A DNA stretch of 38,009 nucleotides, taken from assembly GCA_947630135.1 (NCBI GenBank), contig CANRGH010000022.1:1-38009 (forward strand). The letters are read 5' to 3'. Positions within the stretch are counted from its first letter, which is position 1; every line of letters starts with the position of its first letter. Below are positions 6,488 through 30,063 of the stretch, piece after piece. A model generated the notes under the pieces. That model did not search any database, was not told the origin of the DNA, and saw nothing but the letters and a program-made list of their open reading frames with translations. The DNA comes from an uncultured Monoglobus sp. (GTDB taxonomy: Bacteria; Bacillota; Clostridia; Monoglobales; Monoglobaceae). Made by a program: the position numbers and the translations under genes.

Positions 6488-7819
6488 CTATATCATTCTA
6501 AGTTTAAAGTACGAGCCGCGGCCGCCGTCGTTTACAATTTCCCTGACTGATTCAAGCGTATCAAGATCGGGGATCTCATAAGGAACTTCGGGCGTGCCGT
6601 TTCCGAGCAATCCTATCTCGGGATTATTGATAAGCGTCGGTCTTCCCAAAAGCGCGTTTTGCTTCCAAGTGTCGGTTCCCAGCCTGCCGGCAAAACTTTC
6701 CGTTACGAAATCCTCCTCGCTTATCGTTTCTATGCCCGAGCCGTCTCCGGAGCCGCACGCGCTTTGAGCTGCGGTACTCAGATAATATACTTTCTCGCTG
6801 TTGTTTGCGTTTGAAATTCCGTAAACAGCTCCAACGTTTGAGTTTCCCGTGACCGCGCCGTAGTTGTAACTATTGACACAGCGCGCGCTGCCGTTCGACA
6901 AAACGGTGTCGATCTCCCGATTTCCCGCTATGCCGCCGATATTCTCTTCTCCGGTGACGGTTCCCGCGTTATACGAGTTTATAATTCGGCCGGTGTCGTG
7001 TCCCGCGATTCCGCCCACGTTTGTTTTTCCGCTTACCGCGCCTATGTTGTATGTCTCCATTATGAAGTCTAACGGATTGTTTTGATAGAATCCCGAAATT
7101 CCGCCCACGCTGTCTTTTCCGTCAACCTTGCCGCTGTTCGCGCATGATCTTATCCCAAGACCGTAGGTGCCGGAGGCGGCGATGCCTCCCGTGAAGTCCC
7201 CGCCGTGAATATCACCGCTGTTGCTGCAGTCGGTTATATAAGACATACTTACCATGTCCGCGTATCCGACTATGCCGCCCGTATAAAGTACGCCCGAGAC
7301 GCTGTTATTGTTTGTGCTGTTTTCTATCGCCGCATCAGATGCGTGCGTATAATAATACCCCGCGATGCCGCCGGTGTTTTCACCGCTGCCCGTGATCGTG
7401 CCTCCACCCGCGATATAGCAGTTTGTTATTTCAAAATTTTTCGCGCTGCCGACGATGCCGCCGACATTTTTGCCGCCCGTAACGTCAACGCCCGTGAGCA
7501 AATAGCTGTTTGAGACAGTCTCATCTTCGCTCGATCCCGTGATACCGCCGACGTTGTCTCCCTCGCCGCTCACGGACGCGCCGACTCCGCAGCTTACTAT
7601 ATAGCCGTTTGCGGCGCGGCCCGTAATGCCGCCGACATCAGAGGTGCCGCTGACCTCGGCGGTGTTTTGGCAGTTCTCGACTATCGCCGTCGCGGTTTCT
7701 CCCGCGATGCCTCCGGTGTAATTGCCGCCCTTTACAGCGCCCGAGTTTGTGCAGCCTCCTATCATGGAGCTGTTGTCTAAATTTTCCTCGGGATTTTCCG
7801 CTACTGCTCCGCCGCTCAT
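6488..7819 (-). CDS. Giant SLH surface protein, segment 3 of 4 (GLUG repeats)
   Basis: This is an open segment made almost wholly of GLUG-type repeats, with the recurring pattern VGGIAG...NC.N.G.V (about a dozen copies), ending in a linker of the type LGNGTPEVPYEIPDLDTLE that recurs between the GLUG blocks. The Met at 7819 is internal: the same frame is open and homologous back to about 7870, and no ribosome binding site precedes it. At the other end the frame stops at 6488, while the next frame continues the expected sequence (NDIDLSERYG, then TPIGSDAEHPF). The reading is therefore one protein interrupted, not an independent gene. GLUG repeats are common in Clostridia and Bacteroidetes adhesin-like surface proteins; their ligand is mostly unknown. 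Confidence 0.75.
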   Translation of the reverse strand: MSGGAVAENPEENLDNSSMIGGCTNSGAVKGGNYTGGIAGETATAIVENCQNTAEVSGTSDVGGITGRAANGYIVSCGVGASVSGEGDNVGGITGSSEDETVSNSYLLTGVDVTGGKNVGGIVGSAKNFEITNCYIAGGGTITGSGENTGGIAGYYYTHASDAAIENSTNNNSVSGVLYTGGIVGYADMVSMSYITDCSNSGDIHGGDFTGGIAASGTYGLGIRSCANSGKVDGKDSVGGISGFYQNNPLDFIMETYNIGAVSGKTNVGGIAGHDTGRIINSYNAGTVTGEENIGGIAGNREIDTVLSNGSARCVNSYNYGAVTGNSNVGAVYGISNANNSEKVYYLSTAAQSACGSGDGSGIETISEEDFVTESFAGRLGTDTWKQNALLGRPTLINNPEIGLLGNGTPEVPYEIPDLDTLESVREIVNDGGRGSYFKLRMI

Positions 7820-7854
7820 GTTTCCGGCGATTCCGCCAACGTGCTCGCCGCCGC

Positions 7855-8811
7855 TTACCGGCGCGCCGCTGCTCCGCCGCCTGTGCCTATTTCGCCGACA
7901 ATTCCGCCAACGCAGTTTCCGCTAGACGTGATCGACGAGGTAATGTTTTCGTAATTTTTATGCACGGTGCAGAGCGACAGCAGATTGTTTCCGTATTTTC
8001 CCGCAATACCACCAATGTAATTTCCGTCTGAGTTGATCGTCACGGCGCTGCCGCAAAGCGACAGACTGCCCGAGCATTCGCCCGTGATTCCTCCGACGTA
8101 ATCCGCGTCGAGGCGGCTTTCTCCGCCTAATAAGGTATTCTCCGCGACTAAGCCTTTTGCGGTAATGTCCCCGGCGGCAAAGCAGTTGTACATCCGGCCG
8201 TCGCAATTTCCCGCGATGAATCCGACATGATCGGCGGTGCAGTTTATATTGCCCGAAACCGACAGATTCATAACGGTTCCGCCCTCGCCGACGCTCGCGA
8301 ACAGGCCTAAGTGCGAGGGGTATCCGGTTATTAAGCCGAGTAAGATGTTGACGGAACTGATATCCTTTATGTAAAGTCCGTTTATCTTGTGTCCGCCGCC
8401 GTCAAGCGTGCCGCGGAACGGTACCGCCTCGCTGCCTATGGGATCCCAGGACGCCGCCCACTCGCCGTATTTTTCGGACAGGTCTATATCGCTTGTTATT
8501 TCGAAATACTCGCCCTCTCCCTTGCCGCTGTTTATATAATCGCGGAAACGCTCAAACGAGGAAAGGTTCGTTATTAAATACGGATCTTCCTCGGTGCCGT
8601 CGCCCGGTAAAAGAGTTTCGGGATTTTCGCAAAGTATCGGCCTTCTCAAAGCGGCTGAGTCCGCCCATGCGCCGCCGTCCCGCGCGCTGACGCCGTTGTT
8701 CAGCTTCTCCGCCAGAGTTTTGAAGTCGTCTTCTGTGGTCATTCCGGTTTGATCCTTGGAATCGTAAACGCCGTAATTGATACGACCGGTTTGGGGGATC
8801 GGGGGGGTCAA
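7855..8811 (-). CDS. Giant SLH surface protein, segment 2 of 4 (GLUG repeats)
   Basis: This open segment starts inside the previous one in another frame and has no ribosome binding site. It carries a linker (LLPGDGTEEDPYLITNLSSF), an opening strand region (DIDLSEKYGEWAASWDPIGS) and GLUG repeats (GLFASVGEGG, VGFIAGNCDG, VGGITGECSG, IGGIAGKYG). These match in style and order the blocks in segments 1 and 3. It ends at 7855 in a GC-rich GCCGCTGCTCCGCCGCC stretch, where a frame change of one base restores the reading VSGGEHVGGIAGNMSGG into segment 3. The upstream junction lies at runs of seven and five C (coding strand) near 8795-8812; removing one C joins segments 1 and 2. Confidence 0.7.
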   Translation of the reverse strand: MTPPIPQTGRINYGVYDSKDQTGMTTEDDFKTLAEKLNNGVSARDGGAWADSAALRRPILCENPETLLPGDGTEEDPYLITNLSSFERFRDYINSGKGEGEYFEITSDIDLSEKYGEWAASWDPIGSEAVPFRGTLDGGGHKINGLYIKDISSVNILLGLITGYPSHLGLFASVGEGGTVMNLSVSGNINCTADHVGFIAGNCDGRMYNCFAAGDITAKGLVAENTLLGGESRLDADYVGGITGECSGSLSLCGSAVTINSDGNYIGGIAGKYGNNLLSLCTVHKNYENITSSITSSGNCVGGIVGEIGTGGGAAARR

Positions 8812-10864
8812 GCCAATAGCAGTTTTCTATCACCGCCGAGTCGTCCTTGATGTCCGTAATGAACCCGAACTCGTCTCCATAGAGGAAGGCAAATGCATCG
8901 CTGCCTATGGTCGGATTATAATAGTATGAGTTCGACAGCTTAGAGCCGGCCTCCATTTTGTAAACAAGACCTCCCGAACCTTCGGTGGCGGGTTCTATGG
9001 GACCGTTACCGGGGTTTTGGGCTCTTCCGATGCTGCAGCAATTCGTTATCTCGCCGCCCTTTCCGAGAATTCCGGCAATGCCGCCCGTCGCCACGTATGA
9101 TGAGCCATAGTAATATACATCTGTATAGCAATTCATTATTTTGCCCATGCAGGTGCCGACGATGGCTCCTGTTGCTCCTTTAAATGGGATGTTGCCTTCT
9201 ATCGCTCCCGCAACGATAAGCCTCTCGACCGTGCCTTCGCTGCCGATATATCCGAACAAGCCTTGATTTTCACCCTCGGTTCCTGCCACAAACTTGGTAA
9301 TTCCGGTGATCTTATGGCAGTTGCCGTCGAAATGCCCGTTAAACGGAGTTTTGCTATTGCCTATCGGAGTCGTAAGATAATTTTGCGCGCTGCCGTAATA
9401 ATTATTACTTCCTTGAGTCAATTTGGGAGGATCTATATTAACCATATTGTATCCGATCACATAAACCGACATATCGATATCGGCGTCAAGGCGAACATAT
9501 TTCCCCGAGAAGTCATTTCCGTTGTTGACATAATCCCGAAAATACGCGAGGGATTTAGCGTTTTTGATAACATACGGGTCGCCCTCGGTTCCGCTGCCGT
9601 AAAAACACTCCGGATTGTCAACAAGCACGGGCCTGCCTAAATATGGGCTTATCACCCACGCGAAATCGCTGCTTTGGTTAAGGCTGTCCGTGACCCACTG
9701 CCTTCCGAACTCCTCTTTGGCAAGCGATGTTGCGCCGCTCTCCTGAGCGTCTTCGTTTAAGTAATAGCAGTTGATCATTGTGTCCTCGCTTTTGTAGGCG
9801 CTGTTGCCAATGGCGGAGTTCGTAGCTTTATGAAGCTTACCGTTATATTGATCATAATAATAAATAGGTCCTACGTTATAGCAGTTTTTTACTCTGCTGT
9901 TTTGGTCATAGTATGACGCTATACCGGCCGCCGCCGCGGCGCCATCGATCTTTCCGTATACTTCTCCGCAGTTATAGCAGTCAATTATATTTCCGTTTTT
10001 CTTTTCACCGGTGATACCGCCCGTCCAAGGGAGAGGAGTAGTATGCGCGTATTCCAAATTACTGACCGTGCCGGTATTATAGCATCCCACTATATCTCCG
10101 CCGCGGCTCTCTCCGGCAATACCGCCGTAATGGTCCTTTCTTTTGCTCGGCTGAACCCATGTATGTCCGTCAACCATGCCAAAATTGGCGCAGTTGATTA
10201 TATCGGCACCGCTCGAGCCTACGATACCGCCGATATATCCGGTAGGACCATAACCATATTCAAAGATCGAGTGCAAGTCACCTTGACCATTTGCAACTAC
10301 AATATGACAAAAGTTTGTGCAGTTTTCGATAACTCCGTCGCTGTATCCGGCTATGCCGCCGACATAATACAGCGCTTGGATATATCCGGTGACGCTGACG
10401 TTTTTGACCGAGCCGCCCTCGCCTATATATCCGAACAAGCCATAATATGAAGCCTCGTTGCTGTTTTTAACGTAGAACATATTTTTTTGTACACATATGT
10501 TTAGCACGGCGTGGCCCGCGCCGTCGAAATGACCTTTAAACGGAGCGTCCGGTTTTCCTATCGGTGTATACTCCTTGTTTGGTATAACGTCATAGCTGTG
10601 GCCGCCGCGGCTTCCGGTATCGATGCTGTCCGTCATCTTGAAATACTGATTTGCGCAGTCGTTTCCGCTGTTGACATAGTCGCGGAACCTTATCAAATCG
10701 TCATTGTTGTAAATGAGATACGGACTCAGCTCCGTACCCTCGCCCGAAAGCGCAAGCTCCGCCGCAGACACGCCCAGCGTGAACCCCGGCAGAACCGGCA
10801 TAAGCCCAACAACCATAACGACCATGAGCAAAACCCCGATCGCCCTTCGTAAAAGCATTTTCAT
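8552..10864 (-). CDS. Giant SLH surface protein, segment 1 of 4 (signal peptide and N-terminal GLUG repeats)
   Basis: This is the true start of the giant surface protein. The ATG at 10864 follows a GGAGG seven bases upstream and encodes a signal peptide (basic MKMLLRR, a Leu/Val/Met-rich core, then Ala-rich cleavage near SAAE). After it come two copies of a block: a linker with LxGEGTELSPYLIYNNDDL-type sequence, then a 'PIGKPDAPFKGHFDGAGH' strand region and GLUG repeats (VGGIAGYSDG, IGGIVGSSGA, YGGIAGESRG). The authentic frame ends near 8805; the last roughly 85 codons, after CYWLDPP, are out-of-frame sequence rich in Arg. The protein would be exported by Sec and held at the wall by the SLH domains in segment 4. 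Function is likely adhesion or scaffolding, which is inference. Confidence 0.8.
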   Translation of the reverse strand: MKMLLRRAIGVLLMVVMVVGLMPVLPGFTLGVSAAELALSGEGTELSPYLIYNNDDLIRFRDYVNSGNDCANQYFKMTDSIDTGSRGGHSYDVIPNKEYTPIGKPDAPFKGHFDGAGHAVLNICVQKNMFYVKNSNEASYYGLFGYIGEGGSVKNVSVTGYIQALYYVGGIAGYSDGVIENCTNFCHIVVANGQGDLHSIFEYGYGPTGYIGGIVGSSGADIINCANFGMVDGHTWVQPSKRKDHYGGIAGESRGGDIVGCYNTGTVSNLEYAHTTPLPWTGGITGEKKNGNIIDCYNCGEVYGKIDGAAAAAGIASYYDQNSRVKNCYNVGPIYYYDQYNGKLHKATNSAIGNSAYKSEDTMINCYYLNEDAQESGATSLAKEEFGRQWVTDSLNQSSDFAWVISPYLGRPVLVDNPECFYGSGTEGDPYVIKNAKSLAYFRDYVNNGNDFSGKYVRLDADIDMSVYVIGYNMVNIDPPKLTQGSNNYYGSAQNYLTTPIGNSKTPFNGHFDGNCHKITGITKFVAGTEGENQGLFGYIGSEGTVERLIVAGAIEGNIPFKGATGAIVGTCMGKIMNCYTDVYYYGSSYVATGGIAGILGKGGEITNCCSIGRAQNPGNGPIEPATEGSGGLVYKMEAGSKLSNSYYYNPTIGSDAFAFLYGDEFGFITDIKDDSAVIENCYWLDPPDPPNRSYQLRRLRFQGSNRNDHRRRLQNSGGEAEQRRQRAGRRRMGGLSRFEKADTLRKSRNSFTGRRHRGRSVFNNEPFLV

Positions 10865-10979: not shown

Positions 10980-11008
10980 ACTATACCATACAAAAAATAG
11001 AATTTCAA
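10980..11008 (-). promoter_or_regulatory. Sigma-A type promoter of the giant SLH gene
   Basis: On the minus strand TTGAAA (11008-11003) and TATAGT (10985-10980) are separated by exactly 17 bp. This would give a leader of about 110 nt before the ATG at 10864. The leader contains a short ATGTGT/ATGTAT-type repeat just upstream of the GGAGG; no clear riboswitch was seen. Confidence 0.6.
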
Positions 11009-11067
11009 CGCTTATGACACGAAATGGCCGTTTTGAGACATGAACAGTCAAAAATGCGGCGACTGTA

Positions 11068-11097
11068 TTGACAATTTTATCGGTTCTGTGGTACTAT
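11068..11097 (+). promoter_or_regulatory. Putative sigma-A promoter of hisH-hisF-folC
   Basis: TTGACA (11068-11073) and TACTAT (11092-11097) are 18 bp apart. Transcription would start only a few bases before the GAGGTGA ribosome binding site at 11104-11110, so the leader would be very short. It is divergent from the SLH gene promoter about 60 bp away. Confidence 0.5.
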
Positions 11098-11115
11098 ATT
11101 TCCGAGGTGACACAA

Positions 11116-11721
11116 ATGATCGCGATAATCGATTATGGCGCGGGGAACCTGCGCTCGGTGGAAAAGGCGCTTGAATTTTTAGGATTTAAAGCGAAGATCT
11201 CCGCCGAGCCCGCCGATATCCTCGCCGCCGATAAAATAATACTTCCCGGCGTGGGCGCTTTCGGCGTCTGCATGGACTCGATAAGAGCCGCGGGGCTTGA
11301 CGGCTGCATACGGGAAGCGATACATAACGGCAAGCCGTTTTTGGGCATCTGCCTCGGCCTGCAGCTCCTGTTTGACTCAAGCGAGGAGTCGCCGGGCTCG
11401 AGAGGGCTTTCGATATTTAAAGGCGGAAACAAAAAAATCCCGTCCGCGCCCGGGCTTAAGATCCCGCACATGGGCTGGAACTCGATCGCCTATGACGAAA
11501 GCTGCCCCATTTTCCGCGGCCTCGGGAAAGAGCCGTACATGTACTTCGTCCACTCCTATCACATCGCGCCCGAGGACGAGAGCGCGGTGTGCGCCACGAC
11601 TTGCTACGGCGCGGAAATCCCGGTCGCGGTGTGGCGCGGTAATATCTTCGCCACTCAGTTCCATCCGGAAAAGAGCGGCGACAACGGACTTAAAATACTA
11701 AAAAATTTCGGCAGCCTTTAG
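11116..11721 (+). CDS. hisH: Imidazole glycerol phosphate synthase, glutaminase subunit HisH
   Basis: HisH hydrolyses glutamine and passes ammonia to HisF in the fifth step of histidine synthesis, in the cytoplasm. The 201-residue product begins [15 protein letters not shown], carries the nucleophile Cys in [10 protein letters not shown] (about residue 80), the HMGWN motif, and the catalytic His-Glu in [11 protein letters not shown] near the C-terminus. This is a full-length class I amidotransferase of normal size. The ATG at 11116 is preferred over the upstream TTG because GAGGTGA lies six bases before it and family homology begins there. hisF starts 11 bp downstream, with its ribosome binding site overlapping the hisH stop. 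The rest of the his operon is not in this window. Confidence 0.96.
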
Positions 11722-11731
11722 GAGGGATAGT

Positions 11732-12556
11732 ATGCTTGCAAAAAGAATTATACCGTGCCTTGACGTGAAAAACGGACGCGTCGTGAAGGGCGTCAACTTT
11801 GTTAATCTCATCGACGCCGGAGACCCGGTCGAGGTGGCGAAGGTGTATAACGAGGCGGGCGCCGACGAACTTGTTTTTCTGGACATCACGGCCACGCACG
11901 AGGCGCGCGGCACGGTTATCGAAATGGCCAGAAGAGTCGCGGAGACCGTGTTCATTCCGTTCACGGTCGGCGGCGGAATAAAAACCGTTGAGGACTTCCG
12001 CGAGCTGCTGCTGCAGGGGGCGGACAAGATTTCGATCAACTCCTCGGCGATACGCAATCCGCAGCTCATCTCTGACGCGGCGGAAAAATTCGGCAGCCAA
12101 TGTGTGGTCGTCGCGATAGACGCAAAGCGGGTTGAGGGGGACCCCTCTCAGTCAGGCTGCCGCCTGACAGCTCCCCCCGAGGGGAGCCTTAGCTGCGGGC
12201 GTTCAAAATGGAACGTCTATATTAGCGGCGGCAGGATCGACACGGGGCTCGACGCGGTCGAGTGGGCAAAAAAAGCCGAACGGCTCGGCGCGGGCGAGAT
12301 ACTTCTGACCTCGATGGACTGCGACGGGACCAAGGCGGGATATGACATCGAGCTGACGCGGACGATAGCGGACAGCGTCTCGATACCTGTGATTGCTTCG
12401 GGCGGCGCGGGAACCATGGAGCATTTTAAGGACGCGCTGACCGACGGAAAGGCCGACGCGGCGCTGGCCGCCTCGCTTTTCCACTTCCGCGAGATCGAGA
12501 TAAACGACCTCAAGGACTATTTAAAGTCCGAGGGCGTGCCCGTAAGACGGAGCTGA
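11732..12556 (+). CDS. hisF: Imidazole glycerol phosphate synthase, cyclase subunit HisF, with an in-frame repeat insertion
   Basis: HisF uses ammonia from HisH to convert PRFAR into imidazole glycerol phosphate and AICAR. It is a beta/alpha barrel. Both catalytic aspartates are present at standard positions: Asp11 in IPCLD and Asp130 in VVVAID. The phosphate-binding GGG and SGGAG motifs are also intact. The product is 274 residues against about 252 usual. The excess is 22 residues (137-158, beginning DPSQSGC), placed right after AKRVEG in loop 5, before KWNVYISGG. Those residues are encoded by a palindromic repeat (12140-12205) with no stop in this frame. The start has a strong AGGAGG site overlapping the hisH stop. 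folC follows after 4 bp. Whether the enlarged loop lets the enzyme work cannot be told from sequence, but everything else is intact. Confidence 0.95.
12140..12205. repeat. 66-bp palindromic dispersed repeat inserted in frame in hisF
   Basis: The segment, with its left flank, forms three consecutive perfect stems: GAGGGG/CCCCTC (12134-12147), GTCAGGC/GCCTGAC (12151-12168) and CTCCCC/GGGGAG (12171-12186). The motif set CCCTCTCAGTC, GACAGCTCCCC and GGGGAGCCTTAG resembles, from memory, small palindromic repeats scattered between genes of gut Clostridia. Here it is inside a gene, has a length divisible by three and adds 22 codons. A related partial copy lies at 13822-13839 in the opposite orientation. 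Confidence 0.8.
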
Positions 12557-12560
12557 TTTT

Positions 12561-13802
12561 ATGAATTACGAGCAATCAATAAATTACATACATTCTATAC
12601 CGAAGTTCAGCCGCGTGCTTGGCAACGACCTGTTGCGCGTCCTGCTCGGCAGGCTCGGTGACCCGCAGAAAAGCCTGAGGTTCGTCCATGTCGGCGGCAC
12701 CAACGGCAAGGGAAGCACGGCGACAATGATCTCGGAAATATTAAAAAGCGCCGGTTACAGAACCGGCCTTTTTACCTCGCCGTTTTTGACGCGCTTCAAC
12801 GAGCGGATAAGGATAGACGGCGAACCTGTCGGCGACGAAAGCCTCGCCGAAATCGTGAGCTATGTCAGAAAAATTTCCGAAAAATACGGCGCCGAGGTTT
12901 CGGAGTTCGCGTTTATAACCGCCGCGGCTATGCTGTATTTCGCGCGGGAAAAATGCGACTGCGTCGTGCTTGAGGTCGGACTCGGAGGCAGGCTTGACGC
13001 GACCAATGTCATTGAAAAGCCCGAGGCGGCGGTGCTGACCGCCATAGGCCTTGACCATTGCCAATACCTCGGCGGCACGGTTGGCGAAATATCCATGGAG
13101 AAATTGGGTATAGTCAAGCGCGGCACGCCGCTGGTGCTCTGTCCGAAGCAGGATGCGGTCGTTTTTGAAAACGCAAAAAGGGTATGCGCAAAGCGCGGCG
13201 CGAAGCTTATAATTCCCGACCTGCCCGAAAAATACAACGCCGCCGAACGCTCGTTTTTCTATAAGGGCGAGAAATACTTTCTCGCGATGAGCGGCGGGTT
13301 TCAGGCACTGAACGCAGCGACGGCAATTGAGGCCGCGAACTGCCTTTCAAAAAGGGGATTTGAAATAAGCGGCGAAAACATAAAAACCGGTCTCGGCCGC
13401 GCCAAAATCCCCGGCAGGCTGGACCGATACGGAAACGTTATTATCGACGGCGCGCACAATCTGCAGGCTGTCGGCGCGCTGCTGAATGAGCTTGAGGCGC
13501 TCGGCGGGCCCATCCGCTTTCTGACTGCGGTTATGGACGACAAGGATCACGACGGGATAACAAGGCTGATCGCGGAGTTCTGCAAAAGCCGCGGCGCGTC
13601 CGTCACAGTGACCGAGCTTGACATGCCCCGCTGCCTCGCCGCAGAAAGCCTTGCGGCGGAGTTTGAAAAGCGCGGCGTAAGCGCCGCAGTCATAAAACCG
13701 CCCGCCGCCGCTTTGCGCGAACTCAAAAAATTAGGCGGAACGATCTGCGTCTGCGGTTCGCTCTACCTCGCCGGAGAAATACATAAAATCATAAATAAAT
13801 AA
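12561..13802 (+). CDS. folC: Bifunctional folylpolyglutamate / dihydrofolate synthase
   Basis: FolC adds glutamate to dihydropteroate or to tetrahydrofolates in an ATP-dependent reaction in the cytoplasm. The 413-residue protein is normal length for the Mur-ligase-like family. Visible landmarks are the P-loop in GGTNGKGST (about residues 45-53), the substrate signature around FTSPFLTRFNERI, the Mg-site region LEVGLGGRLDATN, the HCQYLG segment, and the C-terminal-domain start motif GRLD...IIDGAHN. The ATG lies 4 bp after the hisF stop with GGAG eight bases upstream, so it is very likely cotranscribed with hisHF. A folate gene behind two histidine genes shows no obvious pathway link beyond purine/one-carbon metabolism. 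Confidence 0.95.
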   Translation: MNYEQSINYIHSIPKFSRVLGNDLLRVLLGRLGDPQKSLRFVHVGGTNGKGSTATMISEILKSAGYRTGLFTSPFLTRFNERIRIDGEPVGDESLAEIVSYVRKISEKYGAEVSEFAFITAAAMLYFAREKCDCVVLEVGLGGRLDATNVIEKPEAAVLTAIGLDHCQYLGGTVGEISMEKLGIVKRGTPLVLCPKQDAVVFENAKRVCAKRGAKLIIPDLPEKYNAAERSFFYKGEKYFLAMSGGFQALNAATAIEAANCLSKRGFEISGENIKTGLGRAKIPGRLDRYGNVIIDGAHNLQAVGALLNELEALGGPIRFLTAVMDDKDHDGITRLIAEFCKSRGASVTVTELDMPRCLAAESLAAEFEKRGVSAAVIKPPAAALRELKKLGGTICVCGSLYLAGEIHKIINK

Positions 13803-13821
13803 GCGACGGTTGGTATTTATT

Positions 13822-13872
13822 AAGGCTCCCCTTCGGGGATTCTTACGGGACGTCGAGGGCGCCGTCCCCTAC
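13822..13872. repeat. Composite of dispersed palindromic repeat fragments downstream of folC
   Basis: The segment 13822-13839 (AAGGCTCCCCTTCGGGGA) is the reverse complement of one end of the element in hisF, with small changes. It is followed by a second hairpin, GGGACG (13847-13852) / CGTCCC (13863-13868). The surrounding 13803-13941 interval contains no gene. Neither hairpin has a good T-run, so they are not convincing terminators. Confidence 0.55.
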
Positions 13873-13910
13873 GATAAAAGGTGAGATACATAAAATATTG
13901 GCATAATTTA

Positions 13911-28050: not shown

Positions 28051-30063
28051 ATGTCTGTTACCATAGCACTCGCGGGCAACCCTAACTGCGGCAAAACCAC
28101 AATATTCAACGCCCTCACCGGATCCGAGCAATACGTCGGCAACTGGCCAGGCGTCACCGTTGAGAAAAAGGAAGGACGGCTTGTTTCCGATCCCGAGATC
28201 ACGATCGCCGATCTGCCCGGCATCTATTCGCTCTCGCCCTACACTCCCGAGGAGGTCGTGGCGAGAAACTATCTTGTGTCCTCGCCTCCCGATGTTATCC
28301 TGGACATTCTCGACGGGACCAACATTGAGCGCAACCTCTATCTCACGACCCAGCTCATGGAGCTCGGAATTCCTATGGTCGTTCTGATCAACATGGCCGA
28401 CGTGCTCGAAAAGCGGGGCGACGTGATAGATCTGAAGAAATTCTCAAAGGCGATCGGCGGCTGTCCGGTGTTTGAAGTCTCGGCCTTAAAGGGAGACGGC
28501 CTGCGCCGCGCGGTAGACGCGGCGGTCGCTCTTGCGGGGAAGCCCTCTAACACAAATCCGATCGGATTTTCGGCCCCGGTTGAGGAGGCGGCGCTTGAGA
28601 TACAAAAAATAATTTCGCCCGCTTGCCCGCGCAGGGAACAGCGGCGGTTTTTCGCGGTCAAAGTCTTTGAGCGCGACGAGAGGCTTTCGGAGCTTATCGG
28701 CGAGCTTCCCGAGCGTGGCAGGATCGAGGAGATAATCAAAAAAACCGAAAAAAAGCTTGAAGACGACAGCGAGAGCATAATCACCACCGAGCGCTACGCG
28801 AAGATAACATCAATAATAAAAAGCAGCTACATAAACCGCGCGGGCGGCGACGCGCTTTCCGAGAAGATCGACAGCGTGCTCACAAACCGCTGGGCCGCGA
28901 TCCCGATTTTCGCGGCGGTTATGTTTGTTATGTATTATGTCTCGGTAACGTCGCTCGGCGCGATGTTCTCGGGCATAATAGAAGACAATATTTTCGGCGA
29001 CTCGGGAATTGTGCCCGTTGTCATCAGAGCGTTCCTGACCGCGATAGGCACGCACGAAAAGCTTATCTCGCTGATAATCGACGGCATAATCGCGGGCGTG
29101 GGCTCGGTGCTCAGCTTCGTGCCGCAGATAATGATACTGTTCATATTCATGGCGTTTCTTGAGGACTGCGGATATATGTCCCGCGTGGCGTTTATTATGG
29201 ACGGAATTTTCAGAAAGATCGGGCTTTCGGGCAAGTCGTTCATCCCGATAATAATCGGCACAGGCTGCGGCGTTCCGGGAATTATGGCGTCGCGCACGAT
29301 CGAGAACGCGGCCGAGCGCCGTCTGACGATAATCACGACAACGTTTATCCCGTGCAGCGCCAAGCTGCCGATGATCGCTCTGTTTTCGGGCGTTTTCCTC
29401 GGCGGCGCGTGGTGGGCCGCTCCCGCCGCATATCTCATCGGGGCGCTGGCGATAATCATATCCGGAATAATTTTAAAGCGGCTCAAGCTGTTTAAGGGCG
29501 ACTCAACACCGTTTATCATGGAGCTCCCGCCCTATCATCTGCCGATTCCGAAAAACGTGTTTAAAAGCATGTGGAACAGGGTCTCGTCGTTTGTGAAAAA
29601 GGCGGGCACGGTTATCCTGCTCTCGGCGATCGTGATATGGCTGCTTTCAAACCTCGGAATTAGCAGCGGACGCGTCGGATTTACCGACGATTTTTCGGTG
29701 TCGATCCTGTCATACATCGGCGGAGCCTTCGCGTGGCTGTTTAAGCCGCTCGGCTTCGGAACCCGCGAGGCCGCGGTGGCCGTGCTCTCGGGCCTTGTCG
29801 CCAAAGAGAACGTGGTCAGCACCCTCGCCGTTCTCTATCCCGGCGCGGATCTCGCCTCGGCTCTGACCGGCGCGTTCACGCCGGTTTCGGCTTTTGCGTT
29901 TTTGGTGTTCAATCTTTTGTGTGCGCCGTGCGTGGCAGCAATGGCCGCTATCGCCCGCGAAATGAGCAGCAAAAAATGGACCGCATTCGCTCTGGGCTAT
30001 CAGACGGTTTTCGCCTATGTCGTATCATTTCTGATATATCAGATAGGCTCGCTGCTAATATAG
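28051..30063 (+). CDS. feoB: Ferrous iron transport protein B
   Basis: FeoB is the membrane GTPase-coupled Fe(II) transporter. The 670-residue protein has the N-terminal G domain (G1 GNPNCGKTT at 8-16, G3 DLPGIYSL at about 54, G4-like NMAD), the helical GDI-like spacer, then several membrane segments and the family's Gate motifs, including GTGCGVPGIMASRTIENAAE with its Cys and FIPCSAKLPM. C-terminal helices contain LFNLLCAPCVAA. GGGAGA lies just before the ATG. No FeoA or FeoC gene adjoins it, which is less usual. pyrE follows from its own promoter immediately after the stop. Confidence 0.96.
   Translation: MSVTIALAGNPNCGKTTIFNALTGSEQYVGNWPGVTVEKKEGRLVSDPEITIADLPGIYSLSPYTPEEVVARNYLVSSPPDVILDILDGTNIERNLYLTTQLMELGIPMVVLINMADVLEKRGDVIDLKKFSKAIGGCPVFEVSALKGDGLRRAVDAAVALAGKPSNTNPIGFSAPVEEAALEIQKIISPACPRREQRRFFAVKVFERDERLSELIGELPERGRIEEIIKKTEKKLEDDSESIITTERYAKITSIIKSSYINRAGGDALSEKIDSVLTNRWAAIPIFAAVMFVMYYVSVTSLGAMFSGIIEDNIFGDSGIVPVVIRAFLTAIGTHEKLISLIIDGIIAGVGSVLSFVPQIMILFIFMAFLEDCGYMSRVAFIMDGIFRKIGLSGKSFIPIIIGTGCGVPGIMASRTIENAAERRLTIITTTFIPCSAKLPMIALFSGVFLGGAWWAAPAAYLIGALAIIISGIILKRLKLFKGDSTPFIMELPPYHLPIPKNVFKSMWNRVSSFVKKAGTVILLSAIVIWLLSNLGISSGRVGFTDDFSVSILSYIGGAFAWLFKPLGFGTREAAVAVLSGLVAKENVVSTLAVLYPGADLASALTGAFTPVSAFAFLVFNLLCAPCVAAMAAIAREMSSKKWTAFALGYQTVFAYVVSFLIYQIGSLLI

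Follow-up and report, generated by a model that had tools for sequence, protein, structure and literature searches.

A dispersed palindromic repeat in frame at the β5 turn of HisF in an uncultured Monoglobus species, with probably separate copies at the same turn in relatives

INTRODUCTION

Rickettsia provides the best-known cases of palindromic repeats that lie in frame within genes, and there they may be either tolerated or useful. The sections of two reports that treat the Rickettsia palindromic elements (RPE-1 to RPE-10) describe them as dispersed palindromes, some of which lie in frame in unrelated conserved genes at solvent-exposed places, and record orthologues with unlike elements close to a shared position (PMC10969869, PMC3767692). 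GTAG/CGTC REPs are presented, in part of another report, as short and mostly intergenic palindromes whose subfamilies carry alternative complementary stems; the same part gives intragenic examples from several phyla, some of them in open reading frames where they encode 20–30 residues, and a REP at about the same site in recB of two Xanthomonas species (PMC3733652). MITEs, as characterized in a section of PMC10969869, are small non-autonomous repeats able to form in-frame fusions.

We analyzed a 38,009-nt stretch of DNA from an uncultured Monoglobus sp. (hereafter the window; its genome is referred to as G000 and that of the sister species as G003), in which a first-pass annotation had proposed that a palindromic element interrupts hisF in frame and recalls the RPEs. 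The resemblance was borne out, as we found in-frame copies of the same repeat in hisF and in genes for an AAA_24 ATPase, LRR_5 secreted proteins and a DUF927 protein. In this it behaves like the RPEs, and the likeness drawn here is one of behaviour. Whereas RPEs, in the parts of the literature that we cite, measure approximately 100–150 bp and occur in Rickettsia and Wolbachia, the element has a core of 44–58 nt (47 nt in hisF, below the RPE length range), belongs to another bacterial order and consists of two short hairpins. The phyla named for GTAG/CGTC REPs in the cited part of PMC3733652 exclude Firmicutes, and the element has no consistent terminal GTAG/CGTC tag: among 215 copies, GTAG and its complement occurred near the left end in 9 and 7 and near the right end in 2 and 5, and CGTC and its complement in 0 and 0 near the left end and in 35 and 55 within a 22-nt stretch near the right end. 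It also differs from RAYT-mobilized REPs in that no Y1 transposase was found in G000, and it may differ from MITEs, as no terminal inverted repeat pair was established around a unit and no clear target-site duplication was seen. A literature search of open-licence full texts found neither the element strings nor anything on such repeats in Clostridia.

RESULTS

Extent of the insert in hisF

The features of the locus, all on the forward strand, are as follows.

11116–11718, +: hisH, glutaminase subunit, intact and directly upstream of hisF (TIGR01855, 228.5 bits; sequence); the ATG at 11116 was taken as the start, the listed open reading frame beginning at 11068
11732–12556, +: hisF, imidazole glycerol phosphate synthase cyclase subunit, 274 codons plus stop (open frame; TIGR00735, 392.7 bits; PF00977, 288 bits)
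12133–12150, +: predicted extra hairpin made of upstream host bases and the first element bases (fold only)
12136–12200, +: stretch of 65 nt in G000 that is replaced by 5 nt in G003 (blastn of the two loci; aligned loops)
12140–12199, +: codons 137–156, a low-confidence loop of 20 residues with pLDDT < 50 (translation; AlphaFold2 model)
12142–12188, +: palindromic repeat element, 47-nt core, sense relative to hisF (genome copies; alignment of 30 copies)
12151–12168, +: hairpin 1 of the element, 7 bp, perfect, with a stem that covaries between copies (fold; copy comparison)
12170–12187, +: hairpin 2 of the element, 7 bp, perfect (fold; alignment)

The gene lies between hisH and folC, and its product exceeds the TIGR00735 cut-off (294.55 bits) over residues 1–272 and profile positions 1–254, so that it belongs to the HisF family. 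HisB, the next enzyme, was present in G000, G003 and G007, and the other HisF matches in G000, among the matches listed, were HisA-like pieces on contig C7. HisF proteins from 29 of 30 loci were compared, that of the window among them; 25 had lengths of 252–258 residues, and the exceptions were G000 (274), G006 (272), G007 (291) and G017 (276), the last reflecting an upstream start chosen by the script, with a loop of normal length. The repeat at 12142–12188 is absent from hisF of G003, from which the G000 gene differs by a net gain of 60 nt (20 codons) that keeps the frame and contains no stop; the claim of a real, in-frame insertion therefore stood, as did those of perfect hairpins and of standard numbering for Asp11 and Asp130, both of which fell in invariant alignment columns. 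The originally proposed size of 22 codons (66 bp) fits a comparison with the shorter loops of other relatives; it fits neither the difference from G003 nor the element itself, which accounts for 47 of the net 60 nt. Approximately 12 nt downstream are not element, and the remainder of 12140–12205 is not repeat, since no BLAST copy extended beyond query position 72 (12191).

Elsewhere in the window, positions 6488–10864 of the reverse strand hold three overlapping open frames (6488–7819, 7855–8811 and 8552–10864) that resemble a single repeat surface protein, presumably of the GLUG type, with a broken frame; this reads like a pseudogene or a sequence error.

A dispersed palindromic family in the genome and genus

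We searched G000 for further copies of the element and obtained 45 BLAST matches at E ≤ 10, a number that includes the query itself and weak matches. Exact matches to the pattern TCAGTC-N(8–24)-CAGCTCYCC numbered 52, compared with 0 for the reversed-pattern control. The folding energy of the insert (–41.0 kcal/mol, z = –1.87) was reached by 8 of 200 shuffled sequences and is unremarkable for such GC-rich DNA; because of the 52 copies against none in the control, it is repetition and not folding energy that sets the insert far beyond chance. Hairpin 1 retained Watson–Crick pairing at its inner 3 bp in 208/215 copies, with 10 distinct stems, and all six counted pairs were kept in 158/215. The repeat is thus a dispersed palindromic family whose structure is kept by covariation. 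A search with the translated insert as a peptide found itself alone in G000, because copies in other frames or with other stems share few words with it.

Within the genus (12 genomes), nine genomes carried 9 to 105 copies, G008 had one non-palindromic pattern match, and G001 and G009 had none. The search of 39 further genomes of the order gave 1 to 6 pattern matches in six and none in 33. The hisF copy is the sole pattern match on its contig in G000; in G003 an element copy lies approximately 0.8 kb upstream of the hisF start (contig C17, 28029–28054; start at 28856). At the G000 loci L002–L030, element copies often adjoin other repeats (e.g. GTAGGGGCGGATATTATCCGCCCG, TAATCACTATTCACTAATC) in mosaics.

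Copies inside other genes

The first-pass annotation had called for copies within genes to be counted together with their frames. We examined 218 pattern matches (52/52 in G000, 61/63 in G003, 61/70 in G004 and 44/45 in G007). Inspection by eye led us to drop three of the 44 matches in G007 (L180, L196 and L201) as chance occurrences in ordinary genes, which left 215. Six of the 215 lie in frame within genes with coding-like flanks; the count detects insertions that leave the frame open between flanks with a coding-like signal over 25 codons or more, and misses gene-breaking ones. The hosts are listed below.

hisF, in G000 and in G007
AAA_24 ATPase gene (PF13479), in G000; its relatives in the element-free genomes G001 and G009 have no repeat-made stretch
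LRR_5 secreted protein gene, in G000 (L147, contig C2), with an antisense copy right after the signal peptide
LRR_5 secreted protein gene, in G004 (L313, contig C16), with an antisense copy right after the signal peptide
DUF927 protein gene, in G004 (L319, 769–2688), with two element-like stretches in frame (PTQSPSATDSPRGR, PPQSPSATAPPRRR)

One further copy forms the C-terminal tail of a G000 frame that has no Pfam match. Given that approximately 90% of the window is coding by codon score, six in-gene copies out of 215 indicate that survival within genes is rare. The reading frame of the inserted copies differs between host genes; the frame used in hisF is stop-free in 197/215 copies, the most of the six frames, the others being stop-free in 185, 162, 143, 124 and 0. 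The linker of the AAA_24 gene (L203, contig C15) contains, in frame, two element copies together with a further repeat family (peptides ADNIRPYGDAGRRDVEGAVPY), making up approximately 90 residues that are absent from the relatives in G001 and G009.

Element-related loops at the same turn in relatives

We found hisF in 11 of the 12 genus genomes, and none in G008, which is 74% complete. A long HisF loop was present in three of the 11 (G000, G007 and G006), in every case at the turn after β5, and the other eight proteins had 254–258 residues. A loop of equal length and unrelated sequence in close relatives would have spoken against an insertion; instead, eight of the ten other genus hisF genes are short in this turn, and the two long loops are related to the element. 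In a broader comparison covering the best 120 of 7,985 HisF hits (116 turns located by a parser and 4 by eye), the G007 and G006 proteins alone had more than 10 residues in the turn. A wider contig search gave, among the matches listed, 80 HisF loci, all of 77% identity or less and none from the genus.

The G007 loop consists of a sense copy in the same frame as that of G000, followed by a partial in-frame tandem copy, and this protein (P0002) is encoded by three contigs from three sources. The G006 loop has no obvious palindrome and agrees with the reverse-complemented element at 28 of 40 positions in an ungapped alignment. This score was reached by none of 20,000 base shuffles (maximum 26), none of 20,000 codon shuffles (maximum 27) and none of 143 windows of the G006 locus itself (maximum 22). 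As a control with real sequences, we scanned 350 long open frames from the loci retrieved, unfiltered for coding quality, and 10 of 10,764 windows reached 28; judged by eye, these ten translate into element sequence or adjacent repeats, less surely so for the two that score exactly 28. Two stem versions tied as the best match (ACC/GGT and GCC/GGC), the former being the stem of seven of the nine listed G006 copies. A less sensitive gapped local-alignment test with 300 shuffles gave 1/300 for the reverse strand and 0.81 for the forward strand. On these similarities, the G006 loop is identified as a decayed copy of the family in the opposite orientation.

Two sets of candidates were rejected. Loops that are longer by four residues (G002, G004, G005, G010 and G011) were considered as element remnants, and those of G005 and G004 gave no signal when tested (2,919 and 1,784 of 3,000 shuffles, respectively, were as good). 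Protein P0008 (338 aa), from another organism, was considered as a longer insert but contains a long duplicated segment of its own HisF sequence, which may reflect a chimera or an assembly effect.

Number of insertions

In a tree of HisH, FolC and the HisF core, G000 grouped with G003 (support 100), G007 joined next (100) and G006 lay outside (90). The opposite orientation of the G006 copy implies at least two insertions, and the relationship between the copies of G000 and G007 bears on a third. Their arms differ at 1 of 33 nt and at none of seven fourfold sites, compared with differences at 56 of 113 fourfold sites in the host gene (P about 0.008, from a small test of seven sites that assumes the arms to evolve like synonymous sites). 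Their hairpin-1 stems differ entirely. Near-identical arms alongside near-saturated synonymous sites favour three insertions, and we regard the copies of G000 and G007 as most likely two recent insertions and not one old one.

The rival reading that survives best is that a single insertion occurred in the ancestor of G000, G003 and G007, was lost or overwritten in G003 and had its arms kept alike by gene conversion, the G006 event being separate. The copies of G000 and G007 do agree in orientation and frame, both follow closely on a GGGGGAC, and both stand at an equal spacing from the downstream RS (SL-xxx-RS); on the tree, a gain followed by a loss takes as many steps as two gains. We nevertheless consider this history rather unlikely, since it must reconcile the divergence of the host gene with the near-identity of the arms and the unlike stems, and since the G003 turn holds no trace of the element (its forward score of 6 was matched by all 300 shuffles, and 1,354 of 3,000 shuffles did as well in another test). 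Separate insertions are thus preferred, and on balance we lean towards the view that the family has supplied a loop to HisF at least twice and probably three times, in both orientations, at one turn and within one genus.

Position and consequences of the loop in the enzyme

The AlphaFold2 model of the window HisF had a mean pLDDT of 80.6 and TM-scores to 1thf of 0.91 (by target length) and 0.84 (by query length). Residues 137–156, between the strands at 125–133 and 160–164, fell below a pLDDT of 50, as did loop1 residues 22–27. The best structural matches were HisF of Thermotoga maritima (1thf, 1gpw) and HisF-LUCA (4evz), which have the same barrel with D11 and D130; in contrast to the window protein, they have a short turn after residue 136–137, exactly where the two halves of the window HisF part in the alignment. 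The model thus predicts that the barrel is kept and that the insert is a disordered extension of the turn between two strands, and the insert would be translated as a floppy loop of approximately 20 residues.

According to the relevant part of PMC11350729, the active site with D11 and D130 lies on the C-terminal face of the barrel, and β5 carries the catalytic D130. The turn lies on this face, in agreement with the initial placement of the insert after β5 and next to the active site. The accompanying proposal that the insert is near the HisH interface was not upheld: HisH binds the N-terminal face, as stated in the part of PMC9032424 that concerns it, and the insert is accordingly on the catalytic side, away from HisH.

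Outside the loop, dN/dS lay at 0.02–0.04, with 0.020 for G000–G003, a value that could mostly predate a very recent insertion, 0.030 for G000–G007 and 0.024 for G000–G006. The last is the most telling, because the G006 insert is old enough to have drifted. These ratios indicate that hisF is under strong purifying selection, and since the G006 copy drifted while the gene was constrained, the extra loop is probably tolerated, not removed. That the insert instead tunes HisF, as a loop near the active-site face kept for altered activity or stability, would accord with the repeated hits on one turn in the genus and with the position of this turn after the strand carrying D130 (stated in the cited part of PMC11350729). 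We consider such tuning improbable: the three inserts are unlike in sequence, length and orientation, the G006 insert has drifted to 70%, and eight of 11 genus members have no insert.

Far less probable still is removal of the insert from the mRNA, or its skipping by the ribosome, to give a protein of normal length. The first-pass annotation had raised splicing at the RNA level, for which the strong hairpins in the mRNA could be cited; the suggestion found no support, as a removed insert needs neither a length divisible by three nor freedom from stops, yet all three loops have both, and an Rfam search of the window for a self-splicing intron or known structured RNA returned 0 matches at the gathering score. 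Early termination of the mRNA by the element is not supported by a terminator scan of 11000–13900, as none of its eight sites lies at 12142–12188. Equally hard to credit is misplacement of a repeat in hisF by the assembly, a risk in a metagenome-style genome of 42 contigs where repeats can misassemble, because the locus runs uninterrupted into both flanks, which are 95% identical to G003, with frame and net length preserved, and because the G007 version recurs in its three contigs.

DISCUSSION

The reading that we prefer, with a probability of about 0.8, is that a dispersed palindromic element lies in frame in the β5 turn of hisF and is predicted to form a floppy loop of approximately 20 residues there, and that the copies at the same turn in relatives most likely arose by separate insertions. 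The insert is likely a tolerated selfish insertion. The element would spread as a selfish, REP-like sequence by means of machinery acting in trans, and most insertions into genes would be purged. Two properties would let the β5 turn survive them: extra peptide there extends a surface turn and disturbs neither the barrel nor the two catalytic aspartates, and the element can be read without stops in several frames of either strand and adds a net length that is a multiple of three. In G007, the insert would then have been lengthened by a partial in-frame tandem duplication; in G006, the copy would have drifted while hisF stayed constrained.

Movement by a Y1 transposase (PF01797) finds no support in G000, in which none was found; it is present in two of the 12 genus genomes (G003 and G007), and a transposase may have been active formerly or in trans. 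No clear target-site duplication was observed, and one of eight comparisons of flanks between G000 and G003, that of hisF, showed a simple empty site.

Here a family different from the RPEs, in another bacterial group, has struck a (βα)8 enzyme that has been studied intensively, and has done so in several species at exactly the same turn. The sister with an empty site, the fresh copy, the expanded copy and the decayed reverse copy form a dated series along which one could follow tolerance, drift and the effect on catalysis, in an enzyme with established assays for such measurements. If the reading is true, the turn would be a natural replicated experiment in which a barrel enzyme accepts a foreign peptide next to its active site.
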